Positions 1 through 19,518 of a DNA stretch of 64,000 bases are shown in pieces. The stretch lies in contig NZ_AP012322.1 of the NCBI RefSeq assembly GCF_001025155.1, positions 558,001 through 622,000 on the forward strand, read 5' to 3'. Position 1 is the stretch's first letter. The number at the start of each line of letters is the position of its first letter. A model generated the notes under the pieces. That model was given only the letters and a program-made list of their open reading frames with translations, was not told the DNA's origin and searched no databases. The DNA is from Bifidobacterium angulatum DSM 20098 = JCM 7096. Lineage in GTDB: Bacteria; Actinomycetota; Actinomycetes; Actinomycetales; Bifidobacteriaceae. The translations under genes and the position numbers were made by a program.

Positions 1-1095
1 ACTGACATGCCGTTGCGTCAGATCGCAGCCGGTGAGATTGTAGGCTGCTCCGAAGTCGAACGGGTTGTCGAAACGGGCCGTGTTGTATGCCATCATCGCG
101 CAGCCGATGATGAGGAACGGCAGAATCGCCGCGATGGTGGAGAGGATGGCGTGTCTGGAACGGGTGGACAGGATATCGTGGGCTCGGATTTGCGGCCATA
201 GGAGGATGATGCCGAATACCGCGGTGAGGATGAACGCCGGTCTGCAGGCGATGGTGAGCGCGACAAGCGTCGAACCGATGGCGATGAACGGAGTGCGCGG
301 GGTGTGATGGCCATCGCTGGAAGAGCGTGCCCACAATGCGATGCCGGCGGGCGCGAGTGCGAGCGATGCGAGGATGGGAATCGAATAGAACCATGGGACG
401 AGCACCAGATACGTCAATCCGGATGCCGCCACGATTGCGGTGCAGGCGAGGACCGCGAGCCATCTGGGGGTGCCATGCCAATAGCGCTTCCACAGTGTTT
501 CGATGAGGAATATGAGCGAAGCGCATGCCAGTATCGCAAGGAACGCGCATCCTGCGGCGGTCGGCAGATCGGTTCCGGTCAGTGCTTTGAACGGCGCGAA
601 GAGCAGGAGCGCCGGCAGCGGGCCGAAATAGCAGTAGTACCGGCCATGGTAGAAAGCCCAATCCCAGCGTGACGGATCGCCGGTTTGCGCGCCGAGGGTT
701 CCTCTGGCCTGCTCGTCGTACAGATTATCCATGGCCGCAAGCCAATCGGGGACATGCGCGTCGATCCAGGTTCTGCCATGCAGGAACGCGTCGGCGAGCT
801 GCTGGTACTGCGAACGGTCCACGAGGAAGGTGCCACCTTGGTATTGCAGGGTGTACACGCTATCGGAAGGATGCGTGGACACCGTCAGCAGTACGAGAAT
901 CGTCGACATCACTGCCCAGAGAACCACGAAAGGCGTCCATGCGCGATGGCGTTTGCGGTTGGTGTGATCGGTGCGGTCGATGCAATCGGTGTGATCGGTG
1001 CGATCGGCTTCCGGCGTGAGCGGGGAACGGCCGTTGTTCCCCGTCGACGGTCGTACTCGATGTGTGGGGAATATGAAAGAGGTTCCTCTATGCAT
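1..1095 (-). CDS. Polytopic membrane protein, glycosyltransferase-like (3' end outside window)
   Basis: The reading frame is open from an ATG at 1095 down to the left edge, so at least 365 residues are present and the C-terminus is missing. The N-terminus is a hydrophilic tail of about 50 residues containing two copies of a DRTDHT motif (encoded by a 27-bp direct repeat). The first membrane helix follows (FVVLWAVMSTILVLLTV), then a periplasmic-looking loop with a YHGRYYCYFGPLPALLLF stretch and several more hydrophobic segments. The helix-loop pattern, and a stretch reading RFDNPFDFGAAYNLTG, resemble GT39/GT-C type sugar transferases of actinobacteria, but no diagnostic catalytic motif is seen in this part. 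No clear ribosome site precedes the ATG; GTG 927 is an alternative start that would remove the repeat tail and begin inside the first helix. Function is inferred only. Confidence 0.7.
   Translation of the reverse strand, partial: MHRGTSFIFPTHRVRPSTGNNGRSPLTPEADRTDHTDCIDRTDHTNRKRHRAWTPFVVLWAVMSTILVLLTVSTHPSDSVYTLQYQGGTFLVDRSQYQQLADAFLHGRTWIDAHVPDWLAAMDNLYDEQARGTLGAQTGDPSRWDWAFYHGRYYCYFGPLPALLLFAPFKALTGTDLPTAAGCAFLAILACASLIFLIETLWKRYWHGTPRWLAVLACTAIVAASGLTYLVLVPWFYSIPILASLALAPAGIALWARSSSDGHHTPRTPFIAIGSTLVALTIACRPAFILTAVFGIILLWPQIRAHDILSTRSRHAILSTIAAILPFLIIGCAMMAYNTARFDNPFDFGAAYNLTGCDLTQRHVS
961..1006. repeat. 27-bp tandem direct repeat in the N-terminal tail
   Basis: The 19-base unit GGTGTGATCGGTGCGRTCG occurs at 961-979 and 988-1006 (period 27 bp). 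The period is a multiple of three and falls in frame with the minus-strand membrane protein, giving the repeated peptide DRTDHT. This supports translation of that tail. Confidence 0.75.
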
Positions 1096-1239
1096 AATTG
1101 CACTGTATATCACGTAGACGCGATGATATCCGGTGGGGTGTTGGGCGCTGCGAAGGCTGTTATATTGCAGGTTATTGGGGACGGAACAAGCCCGTTCCAG
1201 GAAGCTGATACGGTTCGGATGTCCGCATGATGAACGCGG

Positions 1240-1279
1240 GTGACATGCCGATGTCCGGGGGAGTGGTAATGTAAGCCAC
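1240..1279 (+). promoter_or_regulatory. Candidate promoter for a leaderless polycysteine leader
   Basis: A TAATGT hexamer at 1267-1272 is a fair -10 box, placed so that transcription would begin at about 1279-1280, exactly on the ATG of the leader peptide. A -35-like GTGACA lies at 1240-1245, but the spacer (21 bp) is long. There is no ribosome site at normal distance before the ATG, which fits a leaderless transcript. The promoter is an inference. Confidence 0.4.
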
Positions 1280-1312
1280 ATGTTCAATCGCTCTTGTTGT
1301 TGCTGTCGCTAA
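1280..1312 (+). CDS. Polycysteine leader peptide (MFNRSCCCCR), probable cysteine attenuator
   Basis: ATG at 1280 opens a ten-codon reading frame ending in TAA at 1310-1312: Met-Phe-Asn-Arg-Ser-Cys-Cys-Cys-Cys-Arg. The four Cys codons (1295-1306) are consecutive. It lies 277 bases before a cysteine/cystathionine biosynthesis gene pair. Leaderless short ORFs with polycysteine tracts are known in mycobacteria as cysteine-responsive attenuators of downstream sulfur genes. The same logic is inferred here: low Cys-tRNA stalls ribosomes in the Cys tract and changes the fold of the downstream leader. A stem-loop (1311-1338) begins at the stop codon, where a stalled ribosome would mask its 5' arm. No Shine-Dalgarno sequence is seen. 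Confidence 0.72.
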   Translation: MFNRSCCCCR

Positions 1313-1338
1313 CCAACCGCCCGAGGGGGCGCGTGGTT
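1311..1338 (+). promoter_or_regulatory. Leader stem-loop overlapping the polycysteine ORF stop
   Basis: AACC(1311-1314) pairs with GGTT(1335-1338), and CGCCC(1318-1322) pairs with GGGCG(1327-1331). No U-tract follows, so it is not a classical terminator. The GGGGGC run (1325-1330) could alternatively pair with GCCCC at 1573-1577, directly next to the ribosome site AAAGGA of the next gene. That would give a switch between two folds. The alternative pairing is inference. Confidence 0.45.
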
Positions 1339-1589
1339 CATCGACGCATAACTTGAGATAGGACATTCCAGAATGTTCGGCGTGGTCGCCAGAACTTCGA
1401 TTTTCCGGATTCCCGTAACGTATCGGCATGATCGCCAACCTTCGGCATACCGTAACCGTATACGGTGATCCTCGCACAAACGCGAAAATCCCAACAGGTC
1501 CTGTTTCAACCGCTGCACATGACGACGCGGCTTCCCGGGAGTGCATCCCAACCGAATCCCCGAAACCGCAAAGCCCCAAAGGAAACGTC

Positions 1590-2600
1590 ATGACCATCCA
1601 CAACAGCACCGCAGAACTCATCGGCAACACCCCGCTCATCAAACTCAACCATGTGACGGACGGCATCGAAGCCACCATCGCTGTCAAGGTCGAATACTTC
1701 AACCCGGGAGGCTCCTCCAAAGACCGCATCGCCGAACGCATCATCGACGCCGCCGAGAAGAGCGGCGAACTCAAGCCCGGCGGCGTGATCGTCGAACCGA
1801 CCTCCGGCAACACCGGTGTAGGCCTGGCCATGGTCGCCCAGCAGCGCGGATACCGTGCGATCTTCGTCGTGCAGGACAAGGTCTCCGAATCCAAGCGTGC
1901 CGTGCTGCGCGCCTACGGCGCCGAAGTCGTGGTCGCGCCGACCAATGTGGAACCGGACGATCCGCGCTCCTACTACCGCGTGTCCGACCGTCTCGCCTCC
2001 ACCATTCCCGGCGCGTTCAAGCCGAACCAGTATGACAATCCGAACGGCCCGCTGAGCCACTACCACACCACCGGCCCGGAAATCTGGGAGGCCACCGATC
2101 ATAAGGTCACGCATTTCGTGGCGGGCATCGGCACCGGTGGCACCATCTCCGGCACCGGCCGTTACCTCAAGGACGTTTCCGACGGTAAGGTGCAGGTGAT
2201 CGGCGCCGATCCGGAAGGCTCCATCTACTCCAATCCGAGCGACGTGCATCAGTACAAGATCGAAGGCGTCGGCGAGGACTTCTACCCGAAGGCCTTCGAC
2301 CGTGATCTGCCGGACGAGATCGTGCAGGTCACCGACGCCGAGGCCTTCGAAATGACCCGCCGTCTCGCCGCTGAGGAAGGGCTGCTGGTCGGCGGCTCGG
2401 CAGGCATGGCCGTCGTATCTGCGCTGAAATACGCGCGCGAACATGAACTCGGCGCCGATCAGACGGTCATCGTACTGCTGCCCGATTCCGGGCGAAGCTA
2501 CATGGAGAAGATCTTCAACGATGACTGGATGCGCGCCAACGGATTCGGCGACGTTGTGGACCGTACCACCAAGCCGAGTCTGGCCGAACAGTACCTGTGA
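1590..2600 (+). CDS. PLP-dependent cystathionine beta-synthase / cysteine synthase
   Basis: A fold-type II PLP enzyme of 336 residues that joins serine (or O-acetylserine) with homocysteine (or sulfide). The PLP lysine is K44 in GGSSKDR, followed by the TSGNTGVGLA phosphate/substrate loop (about residues 71-80) and the glycine-rich GIGTGGTISGTG loop. The C-terminal SGRSYMEKIFNDDWM stretch is typical of actinobacterial cystathionine beta-synthases, but the regulatory CBS-domain pair is absent, as in short forms. I chose ATG 1590 because AAAGGA (1578-1583) lies 6 bases upstream; the frame is open upstream but not protein-like. It sits 83 bases before a metB-like gene, so the pair is a trans-sulfuration operon. 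Control by the polycysteine leader at 1280 is inferred. CysK activity alone is the alternative. Confidence 0.88.
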   Translation: MTIHNSTAELIGNTPLIKLNHVTDGIEATIAVKVEYFNPGGSSKDRIAERIIDAAEKSGELKPGGVIVEPTSGNTGVGLAMVAQQRGYRAIFVVQDKVSESKRAVLRAYGAEVVVAPTNVEPDDPRSYYRVSDRLASTIPGAFKPNQYDNPNGPLSHYHTTGPEIWEATDHKVTHFVAGIGTGGTISGTGRYLKDVSDGKVQVIGADPEGSIYSNPSDVHQYKIEGVGEDFYPKAFDRDLPDEIVQVTDAEAFEMTRRLAAEEGLLVGGSAGMAVVSALKYAREHELGADQTVIVLLPDSGRSYMEKIFNDDWMRANGFGDVVDRTTKPSLAEQYL

Positions 2601-2683
2601 GCGCATTCGTTTGCGCTTCCCGATCCCCAAACCCCATCAACCCGGACAATCCGACCAAATCCATCAAGCAAAGGACAATCATC

Positions 2684-3865
2684 ATGACCGTCTCCACCAA
2701 CGCCGCCGCCCTCAACGCCTCCGCACGCGCCACCCGCGCCATCCACGCCGGCCAGGAGCCCGACCCGACCACCGGTGCCGTGGTCACGCCGATCTACATG
2801 ACATCCACCTTCAAACAGGACGGCGTCGGCGGGCTGCGCAACGGTTACGACTACAGCCGCTCCATCAACCCGACCCGCAACAGCTTCGACGAGCAGCTTG
2901 CCAGCGTGGAGGGCGCGAAGTACGCGCTGAGCTTCTCCTCGGGGCTTGCCGCCATCGACGTGCTGCTGCGCTCCACTCTGAAGCCCGGCGACAACATCCT
3001 GCTCGGCAACGACGTGTACGGCGGCACCTATCGTCTGCTCGCCAAGGTGTTCGTGCCATGGGGCATCGGTCTCGACGTGGTCGACATCACCGACACCGCG
3101 GCCGTATCCGCAGCGCTCGCGAACAAGCAGTACCGGTATATCTGGGTCGAAACCCCATCCAACCCGTTGCTGGGCATCGCTGACATCGCCGCCACCTCCG
3201 CCGTGGCACACGCGCACGGCACCAAGGTGGTGGTGGACAACACCTTCGCGTCCCCGGTGCTACAGCATCCGCTGGATGATGGCGCGGACGCGGTCGTGTA
3301 CTCCACCACCAAGTACATCGGCGGCCATTCCGACGTGGTCGGCGGAGCCGTGGTCCTGAACGACAAGGAGACCCGCGATGCCGTGGCGTTCCTGCAGAAC
3401 GCGGCCGGCGCGGTGCCGTCCCCGTTCGATTCCTGGCTGGATATCCGAGGACTCAAGACCCTTGACCTGCGCGTCAAGCAGCACAGCCGCAATGCGTTGA
3501 AGATCGCCCAATGGCTCGAAACCCGTCCCGAAGTGGAGCGCGTGTGGTATCCGGGTCTTGAATCGCATCCGGGGCACGATATCGCCGTACGTCAGATGCA
3601 CGGCGGCTTCGGCGGCATGATCTCCGTGCAGATCGCCGCCGGATTCGAAGCGGCCAAGAGATTCGCCGGAGCCACGCAGGTGTTCACCCTGGCCGAATCC
3701 CTGGGCGGTGTGGAATCGCTCATCGAACATCCCGGTGCCATGACCCACGCCTCCGTGGCCGGTACCACGCTTGAAGTTCCTGCCAACCTGATCCGACTGT
3801 CCGTTGGTCTGGAGGACGCGGATGACCTCATCGCCGATCTGGAACAGGCGTTTGCCCAGATTTGA
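2684..3865 (+). CDS. metB: Trans-sulfuration enzyme (cystathionine gamma-synthase/lyase)
   Basis: Cys/Met metabolism PLP enzyme of 393 residues, the normal length for the family. The N-terminal part carries the YSRSINPTR substrate/PLP segment, SSGLAA forms the phosphate-binding turn, and the PLP lysine is K210 in YSTTKYIGGHSD. The C-terminus has the usual SLGGVESLIEHP and GLED motifs. Members of this family make or split cystathionine, and sequence alone does not separate gamma-synthase from gamma-lyase. ATG 2684 was chosen because AAAGGACA lies just upstream. It follows the cystathionine beta-synthase-like gene on the same strand with an 83-base gap, so the two probably form one sulfur amino-acid operon under the polycysteine leader. 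The symbol is tentative because of the synthase/lyase ambiguity. Confidence 0.85.
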   Translation: MTVSTNAAALNASARATRAIHAGQEPDPTTGAVVTPIYMTSTFKQDGVGGLRNGYDYSRSINPTRNSFDEQLASVEGAKYALSFSSGLAAIDVLLRSTLKPGDNILLGNDVYGGTYRLLAKVFVPWGIGLDVVDITDTAAVSAALANKQYRYIWVETPSNPLLGIADIAATSAVAHAHGTKVVVDNTFASPVLQHPLDDGADAVVYSTTKYIGGHSDVVGGAVVLNDKETRDAVAFLQNAAGAVPSPFDSWLDIRGLKTLDLRVKQHSRNALKIAQWLETRPEVERVWYPGLESHPGHDIAVRQMHGGFGGMISVQIAAGFEAAKRFAGATQVFTLAESLGGVESLIEHPGAMTHASVAGTTLEVPANLIRLSVGLEDADDLIADLEQAFAQI

Positions 3866-4048
3866 GCGGGAGAAAGAAGCGGGAGGAAGACGAGTCGTAT
3901 GGTGGCGTAGGACGGTGAGGGCGGCCTGTTGCCGATGCGGGTTGCTTCGTCGTCGCTTCTCCTCGCTTTGGGACAATGCAGGGGTGGGCTGGATGGCCGG
4001 CTACGGTGCGAGTTCCCTCCGGTTTGAACTGCGTGCACAATAAACAAA

Positions 4049-4080
4049 GGTGGGCCCATCGCAAGCATGATGGTCCCACC
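4049..4080 (-). terminator. Hairpin with minus-strand T-rich tail
   Basis: The stem GGTGGG-CCATC / GATGG-CCCACC has an 8-base loop. On the minus strand it is followed by TTTGTTTATT, the form of an intrinsic terminator. It could also stop plus-strand transcripts from metB less efficiently. Confidence 0.5.
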
Positions 4081-4313
4081 CTGTCAGGAGATTCATCGGG
4101 AGTTGCCGATGGCCGGGGAGCAATAGCATTGAGGAATGCTCGGGAAAAGGAAACTCCCCGACGCTTCGCATTATATGGATAGTCGTCTGTCCGTATACGA
4201 GGATTGTCTTTTTGCACGAATTCTCGTCGTATTCGCAATGGTTGTGTCCGCATAATGATATGCGGTGGTGGACGAACATACAAGATGCTTATCGGTAGCT
4301 CTGAGTCTGGTTT

Positions 4314-4342
4314 CGTGGCGATGCCGTGACGGCATCGCCACG
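4314..4342. repeat. Perfect inverted repeat (13-bp arms)
   Basis: CGTGGCGATGCCG (4314-4326) is followed by a 3-base loop and CGGCATCGCCACG (4330-4342). There is no T-run on either side. It lies 30 bp to the left of repeat element copy A. It may be a terminator, an operator or part of the mobile element boundary. Confidence 0.6.
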
Positions 4343-4372
4343 TTGGACGGCTCGGCGCTGTCAGCTGTCACG

Positions 4373-4530
4373 TATCCCGCTTGTTTGTGGCAGATTCGCC
4401 TTGTTTGGAAACCCTATGTGGCTTGTTTGTGGCACCAAATCGGGATATGCCGGGTATGGGCCTTGCGGTGCCACAAACAAGCCGCTGAGAAGATGCGGGA
4501 TCGGTACATCTGCCACAAACAAGTAGGATA
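4373..4530. repeat. Nested inverted-repeat element, copy A
   Basis: The outer arms TATCC-nn-CTTGTTTGTGGCAGA (4373-4394) and TCTGCCACAAACAAG-nn-GGATA (4509-4530) match except for two bases. The inner arms GGCTTGTTTGTGGCACC (4420-4436) and its exact complement (4467-4483) form a second perfect 17-bp inverted repeat. A further CTTGTTTGGAAACC lies between. The whole is about 158 bp with no coding potential. Very similar DNA occurs at 10855-11046, and a diverged version at 18679-18813. It behaves like a miniature inverted-repeat or REP-type element and bounds accessory cassettes here. Confidence 0.82.
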
Positions 4531-4575
4531 ACTGCTGCGGGATTTGAGCTATGCCAGTTATGTGGGCCGCGTCGA

Positions 4576-4605
4576 TTGACGCATATATGCATATATGCAT
4601 GTCAA
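4576..4605. repeat. AT-alternating palindrome upstream of lacI-type gene
   Basis: GCATATATGCATATATGC (4581-4598) is a perfect 18-bp palindrome, flanked by TTGAC and GTCAA. It lies about 50 bp before the promoter of the LacI-family gene. It is possibly a binding site or simply structured DNA. Confidence 0.5.
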
Positions 4606-4656
4606 GCATGTGCTGAATGAGTCAATATGCAGTGGATGCAGGGCGTGTCGCATGTT

Positions 4657-4686
4657 TTGACAATATTGCGTTCGCATGGCTATTAT
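4657..4686 (+). promoter_or_regulatory. Promoter of the LacI-family gene
   Basis: A consensus -35 TTGACA (4657-4662) is separated by 18 bp from TATTAT (4681-4686), the -10. Transcription would start around 4693, inside the first LacI-type operator, so autorepression is expected. Confidence 0.75.
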
Positions 4687-4690
4687 AAGT

Positions 4691-4714
4691 GAAACGTTTC
4701 GACGAAACGATTCG
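4691..4714. promoter_or_regulatory. Two LacI-type operators before the regulator gene
   Basis: GAAACGTTTC (4691-4700) and CGAAACGATTCG (4703-4714) are palindromes of the LacI-family type, with centres 13 bp apart. The same core, CGAAACGWTTC, recurs twice in front of the binding-protein gene. Shared control by the adjacent regulator is inferred. Confidence 0.75.
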
Positions 4715-4898
4715 ACAATCAAGGCAAGTGGTGCCGTGAATTGAAGAGTGAAGTCGAGCGTGCGGATCTACAACTGGGCGCGGAGTCGCTGGCGGGTGCA
4801 CGGTTCGCGAACTGGTGATGCTGGTGTTCATCTATGTGCAATGGGAGACCGGCATTGTTCAGTGTGGTTGTCGGAAATTAGGCAAAGGAGCGTGTGGT

Positions 4899-5927
4899 AT
4901 GGCAGGCATTAAAGATGTGGCTCGTGCTGCTGGCGTGTCTGTCAGCACGGTTTCCTATGTGCTTTCCGGCAAGCGTTCTATTTCCGTCAAGACCGCTGAC
5001 AAGGTTATGGCGGCGGTGGAAAAGCTCGGGTACACGCCGGATGCCAGTGCCCGCAAAATGCGTGGCGTTCGTAACCAGATCATTGCATTGAGCGCCCCGA
5101 TTCGTGGTGATATCAATCAGGCGAAGTACAACGCCTACTTCCTGCATACCGCATGGCAGGCGAAAGATAGGGGCTACGATGTGCTTTTGCTTACGGGGGA
5201 GGACGCCGTGGGTGATCTTCGCCGTGTAACGCAGAGCAATCTGGTCGACGGTGTTGTGCTGCTTGATATTGAAGAACATGATGTGCGCGCAGCCGAAGCT
5301 GGTTTGTATTCGAAGCCTTGTGTTGCCATAGGTCTTCCGAGCGAGCACGGCGACTGTGCATGCGTGGATATCGATTTCACCATGGCTGGTCGTCAGGCTG
5401 CTGATTGTCTGTATAGCAAGGGGCATCGCAAAGTGGTGTTCCTGCGTGATAATGAGGCCGATTATGAGCGTGGTTCTGGGTATGTGCTGCTGTTTCGTGA
5501 GAGCCTGATGGCTCATGCCAAGGAATTGGGGTTGCGAATCGTCGAATCGTCAAAGCATGGGTTCGATCAGTTCGATGCCGCGACTTTTGTGCATGACGTG
5601 TTCGATGTCGAGGACAGGCCTACGGCGATTATCAATCAGGCTAGCGCGAATGTGCTGAATCAGGTGCTGCAGGAGCTGCAGTCCGCAGGTTTGTCTGTGC
5701 CGGATAACGTGTCGGTGCTGTCGTGCGGAACGTACTTCGAGGGTGAGTTGATGACGCAGCCGATTACCGAGATGCCGGTTATGCCGCAGGAGCTTTGTTT
5801 CAAAGCCGTGGAATTGCTGGTGAATGCGATTGAGAGCCATACCGATATCAGGGGCGTGGTTGAGCTTTCCCGGCCGGCGATGCATCGTCATGGTTCCGTT
5901 GCCGAGGTTGATGTCGGGGAACAGTAA
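4899..5927 (+). CDS. LacI-family transcriptional regulator of the adjacent sugar cassette
   Basis: 342 residues, the usual LacI length. Residues 1-50 form the helix-turn-helix and hinge (IKDVARAAGVSVSTVSYVL, then YTPDASARKMR), and the rest is a periplasmic-binding-like effector domain with the customary FTMAGRQAADCLYSKGHRKV and PTAIINQ segments. I chose ATG 4899 because it begins the helix-turn-helix; the frame upstream to 4815 is open but not family-like. Two palindromic operators overlap its own promoter and two more flank the start of transcription of the downstream binding-protein gene. It is therefore the likely repressor of the 6135-10639 operon, released by a fructose- or arabinose-type glycan (effector not determined). 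Confidence 0.88.
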   Translation: MAGIKDVARAAGVSVSTVSYVLSGKRSISVKTADKVMAAVEKLGYTPDASARKMRGVRNQIIALSAPIRGDINQAKYNAYFLHTAWQAKDRGYDVLLLTGEDAVGDLRRVTQSNLVDGVVLLDIEEHDVRAAEAGLYSKPCVAIGLPSEHGDCACVDIDFTMAGRQAADCLYSKGHRKVVFLRDNEADYERGSGYVLLFRESLMAHAKELGLRIVESSKHGFDQFDAATFVHDVFDVEDRPTAIINQASANVLNQVLQELQSAGLSVPDNVSVLSCGTYFEGELMTQPITEMPVMPQELCFKAVELLVNAIESHTDIRGVVELSRPAMHRHGSVAEVDVGEQ

Positions 5928-19233: not shown

Positions 19234-19518
19234 ATGGCATTCGGCACTGAGCCCACCCCCACCGGACTGGCGACTCCGTCTATCGACGATTTGATGAAGC
19301 ACGCCGATTCCAAGTACGCGCTGGCGATTTTCGCCGCGAAGCGCGCACGTCAGATTAACTCCTACTTCACCCAGCTTAACGAGGGTCTGCTGCAGAACGT
19401 TGGTCCGCTGGTTGAATACCAGAGCCAGGACAAGCCGCTGTCCATCGCATTCCGTGAGATCGACGAAGGCCTGCTGGAGGAGACTCTCGGCGAGGACGAT
19501 CTGACCGAAGGCAACTGA
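19234..19518 (+). CDS. rpoZ: RNA polymerase omega subunit
   Basis: 94 residues, normal for omega. The conserved core reads [28 protein letters not shown] (positions about 15-42), in which KYAL and KRARQIN contact the beta-prime subunit, and [14 protein letters not shown] follows. Omega helps RNA polymerase assembly. ATG 19234 was chosen because GGAGATAA lies upstream and the protein then begins MAFGTEPT; an ATG five codons earlier has no ribosome site. A strong terminator (19538-19583) follows immediately, so it is separated from metK. Confidence 0.92.

Follow-up and report, generated by a model that had tools for sequence, protein, structure and literature searches.

The window, the stretch of 64,000 nucleotides from Bifidobacterium angulatum analysed here, belongs to a genome of 2,021,974 bases in a single contig. 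It carries a cysteine-metabolism operon in which a micro-ORF is the first open reading frame, followed after 277 bases by cbs and then by a metB-like gene. Against the NCBIfam profile TIGR01137 the cbs product scored 506.5 bits (cut-off 510.25), with profile positions 2-327 of 457 covered, and the second gene scored 681.3 bits against NF005871 (cut-off 513). The closest cbs relatives among the named matches were Bifidobacterium species. On the 3' side of the operon, positions 4379-4524 hold four copies (two per direction) of a short repeat, CTTGTTTGTGGCA/TGCCACAAACAAG, after which comes a gene whose start presumably resembles that of a LacI-type regulator. An earlier note on this DNA had placed cystathionine/cysteine genes behind the micro-ORF, and the profile matches agree, giving cbs and then a gamma-synthase-type gene. 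Its premise that bifidobacteria depend on trans-sulfuration from methionine is not secure: B. longum DJO10A is reported to be auxotrophic for cysteine and to lack cystathionine gamma-lyase (PMC11540073), and the profile score of the gene behind cbs is that of a gamma-synthase. The features discussed below, all on the + strand, are as follows.

1242..1255, +: palindrome GACA-N6-TGTC (GACATGCCGATGTC) over the -35 region, a possible operator, kept in relatives
1264..1272, +: extended -10 element TGgTAATGT
1280..1312, +: micro-ORF MFNRSCCCCR*, read directly from the letters; probably leaderless, with a putative transcription start at 1280
1295..1306, +: four consecutive Cys codons (TGT TGT TGC TGT), the proposed sensor
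1292..1356, +: predicted hairpin (single-sequence fold) in which the Cys codons (1296-1308) pair with 1342-1352, with an apical stem at 1311-1338 just past the stop codon
1353..1364, +: switch arm TTGAGATAGGAC, the predicted alternative partner of 1498-1509
1498..1509, +: element GTCCTGTTTCAA, predicted to form 12 pairs (two of them G-U) with the arm, and able through 1502-1507 to pair with 1582-1587 of the ribosome-binding site (RBS)
1518..1524, +: CATGACG, complementary to CGTCATG at the cbs start codon (1586-1592) and the best RBS partner in the window's leader
1578..1592, +: cbs RBS and start codon (AAAGGAAACGTCATG)
1590..2600, +: cbs, cystathionine beta-synthase/cysteine synthase family; the match is without C-terminal CBS domains
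2684..3865, +: metB-like cystathionine gamma-synthase-type gene

The micro-ORF reads ATG TTC AAT CGC TCT TGT TGT TGC TGT CGC TAA. Upstream of it TAATGT (1267-1272), with TGg directly 5', makes an extended -10 that leaves a 7-base gap to the A of the ATG. No Shine-Dalgarno (SD) sequence lies at working distance from this ATG; the sole SD-like run, GGGGGAG at about 1257-1263, is 16 bases 5' of it and upstream of the -10, too distant to act as an SD. Reading of the letters thus confirmed what the earlier note had reported, namely ten codons with four Cys in a row, no SD and a -10-like TAATGT. On neither strand does the window hold another short ATG ORF whose Cys run reaches four codons or more, and shuffling window 1-1589 by mononucleotides 20,000 times never produced one. 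The arrangement TGnTAnnnT at exactly 7-base spacing precedes 2 of the window's 2,610 ATGs (both strands), 1280 among them. A pattern-based promoter scan of 900-1800, which requires a -35 hexamer, returned no site. Leaderless transcription is common in the genus Bifidobacterium; in B. pseudolongum about 15% of 174 confident transcription starts are leaderless (PMC4782308, in excerpt).

Conservation of the leader was assessed by a cbs search over 112 genus genomes, from which 92 loci (L001-L092) were examined: 77 with a cbs orthologue (70-100% identity) and 15 with a cysK-like gene (about 42% identical). Genome G022 has a further cbs-like copy that stands outside the 77. A Cys-run micro-ORF precedes cbs in all 77. 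The first scan recovered it at 75; the remaining two were L044, where the Cys run is interrupted (SCCRCCR), and L074, where the micro-ORF lies farther upstream than the scanned stretch (the same locus was re-read as L145). The peptides have 9-11 residues, the last being Arg, or Leu in L067, L070, L073 and L145. At least three consecutive Cys codons are present at 76 of the 77 loci; the codons ahead of the run vary, the run is kept, its length changes by whole codons (3, 4 or 5), and the ORF is open in every genus leader. TAnnnT is found 6-9 nt 5' of the ATG at 76 of 77 loci (the exception is L065), with the TG extension at 69 and a spacing of 7 at 64. Across Bifidobacterium the Cys run is kept, and so is the ATG-at-start layout, at 76 of 77 loci each.

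A covariance model of the element (R1) matched 74 of the 112 genus genomes at E<=0.01, with one sense-strand match each, always 206-1022 nt upstream of cbs and on its strand; G001 and G051 gave an additional weak match on the opposite strand at the same place. Three cbs genomes, the divergent G056, G063 and G064, were without a match in this search, which used stricter filters under which weak copies can be lost. Family-wide, 93 of 189 genomes matched at E<=0.1, in 4 of 16 genera and with 18 genomes outside the genus; one genome (G157) had two sites. The micro-ORF stood ahead of cbs and metB in all 11 of these 18 that were examined. Among named genomes it was found at 43 of 44 Bifidobacteriaceae cbs loci and missed in B. 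moraviense (L161), and at other actinobacterial cbs loci 1 of 36 had any ORF holding three Cys in a row. That sole case is Aurantimicrobium minutum (L193), with a GTG ORF, VITSRLCCCR*, 145 nt 5' of cbs, which suggests a related or a convergent leader. The pattern TGYTGYTGYCGNTRA was unspecific across the genus. Two observations concern cbs itself. At L071 (G022 contig C1, 540530-544003) two nearby cbs-like genes, 76% and 73% identical to the window's, have a sense-strand model match upstream of the first only. At L072 cbs seems to begin farther upstream than the alignment would place it (ATGACCACGCTG...), which would give an N-terminal extension, and the cbs starts of L067, L070, L073 and L074 may be similar.

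Leader alignments (A1 holds 60 distinct sequences, without L075-L077, L044 and L074) revealed a stem-loop 3' of the stop codon, such as ACCGACGCC..GGCGAGCGGT, followed by a second motif, GACGCATAACTTGAGA. Conservation of this motif is explained by pairing, as its letters complement those of the Cys run and of the bases ahead of the run. Folded from the ATG through this motif, the 75 loci had a median minimum free energy of -31.1 kcal/mol (median z -3.9), and z was below -2 at 65 of the 75 (-3.7 in the window). The ten loci above -2 include the divergent L075-L077 (z -0.2 to +2.4). Cys-run bases were predicted to pair with the RNA past the stop codon at a mean probability above 0.5 at 73 of 75 loci. 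Of 267 Cys codons in the leaders (counted with the short form of L028, from its inner ATG), 247 are TGT and 20 TGC, compared with 38 TGT and 161 TGC among 199 Cys codons in the mechanically listed window ORFs of at least 400 codons. Such a TGT excess is expected if pairing holds the letters.

Covariation within this hairpin is weak evidence because the sequence hardly varies. Of all cells, 93.8% were paired against a shuffled mean of 92.7, and there were 9 double-change cells; none of 500 shuffles was as high in either measure. Pairs with double changes numbered only 3 (48 of 500 shuffles as high) and further pair types 8 (436 of 500), and sliding the partner by -3 gave a higher covariation score, 0.107 versus 0.094. 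RNAalifold on the mixed block of 3-Cys and 4-Cys leaders returned three pairs only, at -0.8 kcal/mol. The pairing register shifts by one codon between these classes, which accounts for the poor result, and single folds and clade alignments were therefore used.

Clade alignments contain a second conserved piece ahead of cbs. In the window's clade it is GGUCCcGUUUCAAC..UGCA, complementary both to the SD (GGAAACG) and to the arm (UUGAGAUAGGAC). Elsewhere the letters differ from those of this clade: GAUUCCGGC pairs with GCCGGAAUC in L016 and UUGAGAUAGAACC with GGUUCUUCUCAA in L021, and in L011 and L052 the SD and its partner differ together. In a swap test, which controls for base composition, we scored how well every arm pairs with the leader it belongs to (-150 to -18) and how well with the leaders of other species. 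From 65 of the 75 loci (L075-L077 being among those set aside here, for co-localisation and for the stalling model), 38 non-redundant leaders were picked by k-mer overlap; they are similarity-filtered and phylogenetically dependent. Own arm paired better with own leader (z -6.2, p<1e-4), as did own RBS with own leader (z -4.2, p<1e-4), and six control pairings were not significant (z -1.34 to +1.32). The first version of the test had given z -6.4 for the arm, -7.1 for the arm end and -3.4 for the RBS (p 0.00045), with own RBS pairing beating the column median in only 23 of 38 leaders. Best partner sites of arm and RBS co-localised in 25 of 65 leaders versus 13.3 expected, a comparison superseded by the swap test. 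These sequence comparisons support an attenuation-type RNA switch at the cbs leader.

The effect of a stalled ribosome was modelled as a blocked 5' end with equilibrium folding. Mean RBS openness rose from 0.43 to 0.53 across the 38 leaders; changes above 0.1 were upward in 18 and downward in 1 (p 5e-5), and the predicted gain was below 0.1 or negative in 20. Over all 65 leaders, 24 moved up and 4 down by more than 0.1. Shuffling the middle of the leader removed the gain (0.113 versus 0.006; observed higher in 28 of 36, p 1e-5; two leaders longer than 520 nt were left out). Refolding was clear in L016 and L023. When accessibility was computed for the SD only, 23 of 68 leaders went up and 2 down, with the window unchanged at 0.72 and 0.72; the 68 are the 75 loci less 7 with uncertain cbs starts. 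In the window's own leader the arm was paired with the element in both states and RBS openness was 0.46 in each, so that only a kinetic switch could operate there. Covariation and folding over the 38 leaders gave alternative pairings that exclude one another and govern access to the RBS; in the equilibrium model of the window's leader the RBS did not change.

Of 75 leaders, 31 carry the palindrome GACA-N6-TGTC upstream of the -10 with no more than one mismatch (21 without any), and in 30 of the 31 it sits precisely at -38; the rate in mononucleotide shuffles of the same region was 0.85%. As the palindrome is conserved at this position, a transcription factor probably acts at the leader promoter in addition. 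In its own genome GACATGCCGATGTC with up to three mismatches occurs at 546 places and is unspecific. The window's only other GACANGCNGNTGTC (19429-19442) was dropped, since it lies upstream of metK inside a short ORF that we take to be rpoZ.

Taken together, we consider it likely that the cbs operon is under leaderless, cysteine-responsive translation attenuation. The transcript would begin with the A of the AUG, where a ribosome would initiate without an SD. With ample Cys-tRNA it would run through the Cys codons and leave, whereupon the Cys-codon RNA would pair with the arm just past the stop codon, a conserved, predicted pairing; with the arm sequestered, the downstream leader would be free to mask the cbs RBS, as the predicted, covarying pairing suggests. 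When Cys-tRNA is short, the ribosome would stall on the Cys run and the arm could not pair there; it would pair with the masking element instead, a pairing that is likewise predicted and covarying, and the cbs RBS would presumably be freed. The conservation, the hairpin, the two alternative pairings and their covariation were computed; the start site, the stalling and the cysteine response are proposed. For the attenuator proposed in the earlier note, covariation adds an attenuation-type switch and the comparison of relatives a conserved layout; its leaderless transcription and response to cysteine keep the standing of inferences.

Termination would be another route to control. A pattern scan of 900-1800 found no intrinsic terminator; under looser criteria 26 of 75 leaders, among them that of the window, had candidates, which are not conserved. 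The window's candidate, at 1375-1403, is a weak terminator-like hairpin, GTTCGGCGTGGTCGCCAGAAC (stem 1375-1395, -9.2 kcal/mol), with the tail TTCGATTT; it is absent from the closest relatives, L002 and L003. A classical transcription attenuator was rejected, as the leader holds no conserved intrinsic terminator. Rho-dependent attenuation, by which stalling on the micro-ORF as opposed to its full translation would decide whether Rho loads on the untranslated leader and terminates before cbs, seems to us rather unlikely. The genome has a gene for Rho (TIGR00767, 599.9 bits, over the cut-off), Rho was proposed for a cbs leader by Seliverstov et al. 2005 (PMC1262725, in excerpt), and at 68 of 72 loci the post-hairpin leader is richer in C than in G (mean 0.30 versus 0.24; three of the 75 are too short for the comparison). 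Yet 13.6% of random 225-nt stretches of the window reach the value of its leader's best C-over-G stretch (1.87 over 78 nt), and Rho leaves unexplained why arm and RBS covary with the leader. Rho attenuation and RBS masking could also act together.

We judge it unlikely that the leader ORF does not sense cysteine and serves (re)initiation on a leaderless mRNA, with a promoter operator controlling the operon. The conserved palindrome over the -35 (31 of 75) favours operator control, as do published mRNA levels, in which no fall on cysteine appears (PMC11540073; PMC4656816, in excerpt). In B. longum DJO10A, mRNA of BLD_0913 (annotated metB, adjoining BLD_0914 cysK), which is taken as the counterpart of the window's second gene, rises with cysteine (PMC11540073). 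In the excerpted text of PMC4656816, cysK and metB mRNA of B. bifidum is unmodulated by cysteine alone; complete defined medium raised it, as did glutathione in the absence of cysteine. These data on the cysteine response are mixed or contrary; they are mRNA levels, and control of translation may leave those as they are. Against an operator acting by itself, the Cys run is kept at 76 of 77 loci while the preceding codons vary, and the switch pairings covary. That the conserved RNA works without translation of the ORF, for example by binding a protein or tRNA, is very improbable. The RNA around the stop codon is indeed strongly conserved, but Rfam 15 gave no family match up to E 1 in window 1-5000, and the ORF stays open in every genus leader with a Cys run that varies by whole codons. 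A chance ORF is hardly credible, being refuted by conservation at 77 of 77 loci, with 0 of 20,000 shuffles yielding its like.

Polycysteine leaderless short ORFs of mycobacteria were reportedly described by Canestrari et al. 2020 (Mol Microbiol 114:93), where a cysteine response is said to have been shown experimentally. Such mycobacterial ORFs are also cited in PMC9031893 and PMC13236596 (both in excerpt). The cbs leader would share with them the leaderless layout and translation attenuation, and it shares consecutive Cys codons and a place before cysteine genes; the operons differ, and the cysteine response, reportedly experimental there, is a prediction here. The earlier note knew of no bifidobacterial example, yet Seliverstov et al. 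2005 (BMC Microbiol 5:54, PMC1262725) had predicted a Cys-run leader peptide upstream of B. longum cbs. It concerns the same gene and genus and a short ORF with its Cys run near the stop, and it is almost certainly the same element as the window's, given that each of the 77 genus genomes with a cbs orthologue has the micro-ORF ahead of that gene. In the excerpted text of that paper no terminator was seen, Rho was suggested and the mode of regulation was left unexplained because parts of an attenuator were missing; the leader is described there without a leaderless start, a hairpin or an anti-SD, all of which are proposed here. The leader peptide itself, known since 2005, is therefore not new, and what is new is the candidate mechanism; the earlier note was right in kind and wrong on novelty. 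Among the matches listed in the open-access literature, none was later bifidobacterial work on the cbs leader.

Two other systems are comparable. The uORF motif of Corynebacterium ilvB-II (PMC10272879) likewise has a uORF rich in the regulated amino acids that picks between RNA structures, at one site per genome; it differs in its branched-chain codons and intrinsic terminator, and the excerpted text describes no SD masking. In the LEU element of actinobacterial leuA (PMC1262725, in excerpt) the sensing codons likewise lie in a stem, there formed with the gene's SD, whereas the present Cys codons pair with the post-stop arm and the RBS with other leader sequence. Mutations of the leucine codons of leuA did not fit classical attenuation (same source).

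A second type of leader was observed before the cysK-like genes. At 11 of these 15 loci (L078-L088, in small genomes) stands an unrelated, SD-led leader ORF of 28 codons, MYHTNMMTNCCCNVCCCAFLNRNDVCKH with small variations, which has two CCC runs; in L078 its ATG lies 385 nt 5' of cysK. An intrinsic terminator, AAGAAACAGCGCGCTGTTTCTT plus a T run, follows about 150 nt after the leader ATG in all four of the loci that were folded. This layout is that of a classical transcription attenuator for cysteine and seems to have been arrived at independently.

For a broader reading, our confidence is evenly divided. It holds that Bifidobacteriaceae would possess an SD-less sensor with a three-way switch between Cys codons, arm and RBS-masking leader, in which the sequence has drifted and the pairings are kept; that a conserved operator would sit on its promoter; and that a separate, SD-led, terminator-type attenuator would have arisen independently before the distant cysK. 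The leaderless layout, the hairpin of Cys codons and arm, and the covarying RBS masking make specific mutations and their compensations testable in gut bacteria that are easy to handle. If leaderless, cysteine-responsive translation attenuation does govern cbs, leaderless polycysteine attenuation would extend from mycobacteria to a family in which cysteine supply matters for growth.
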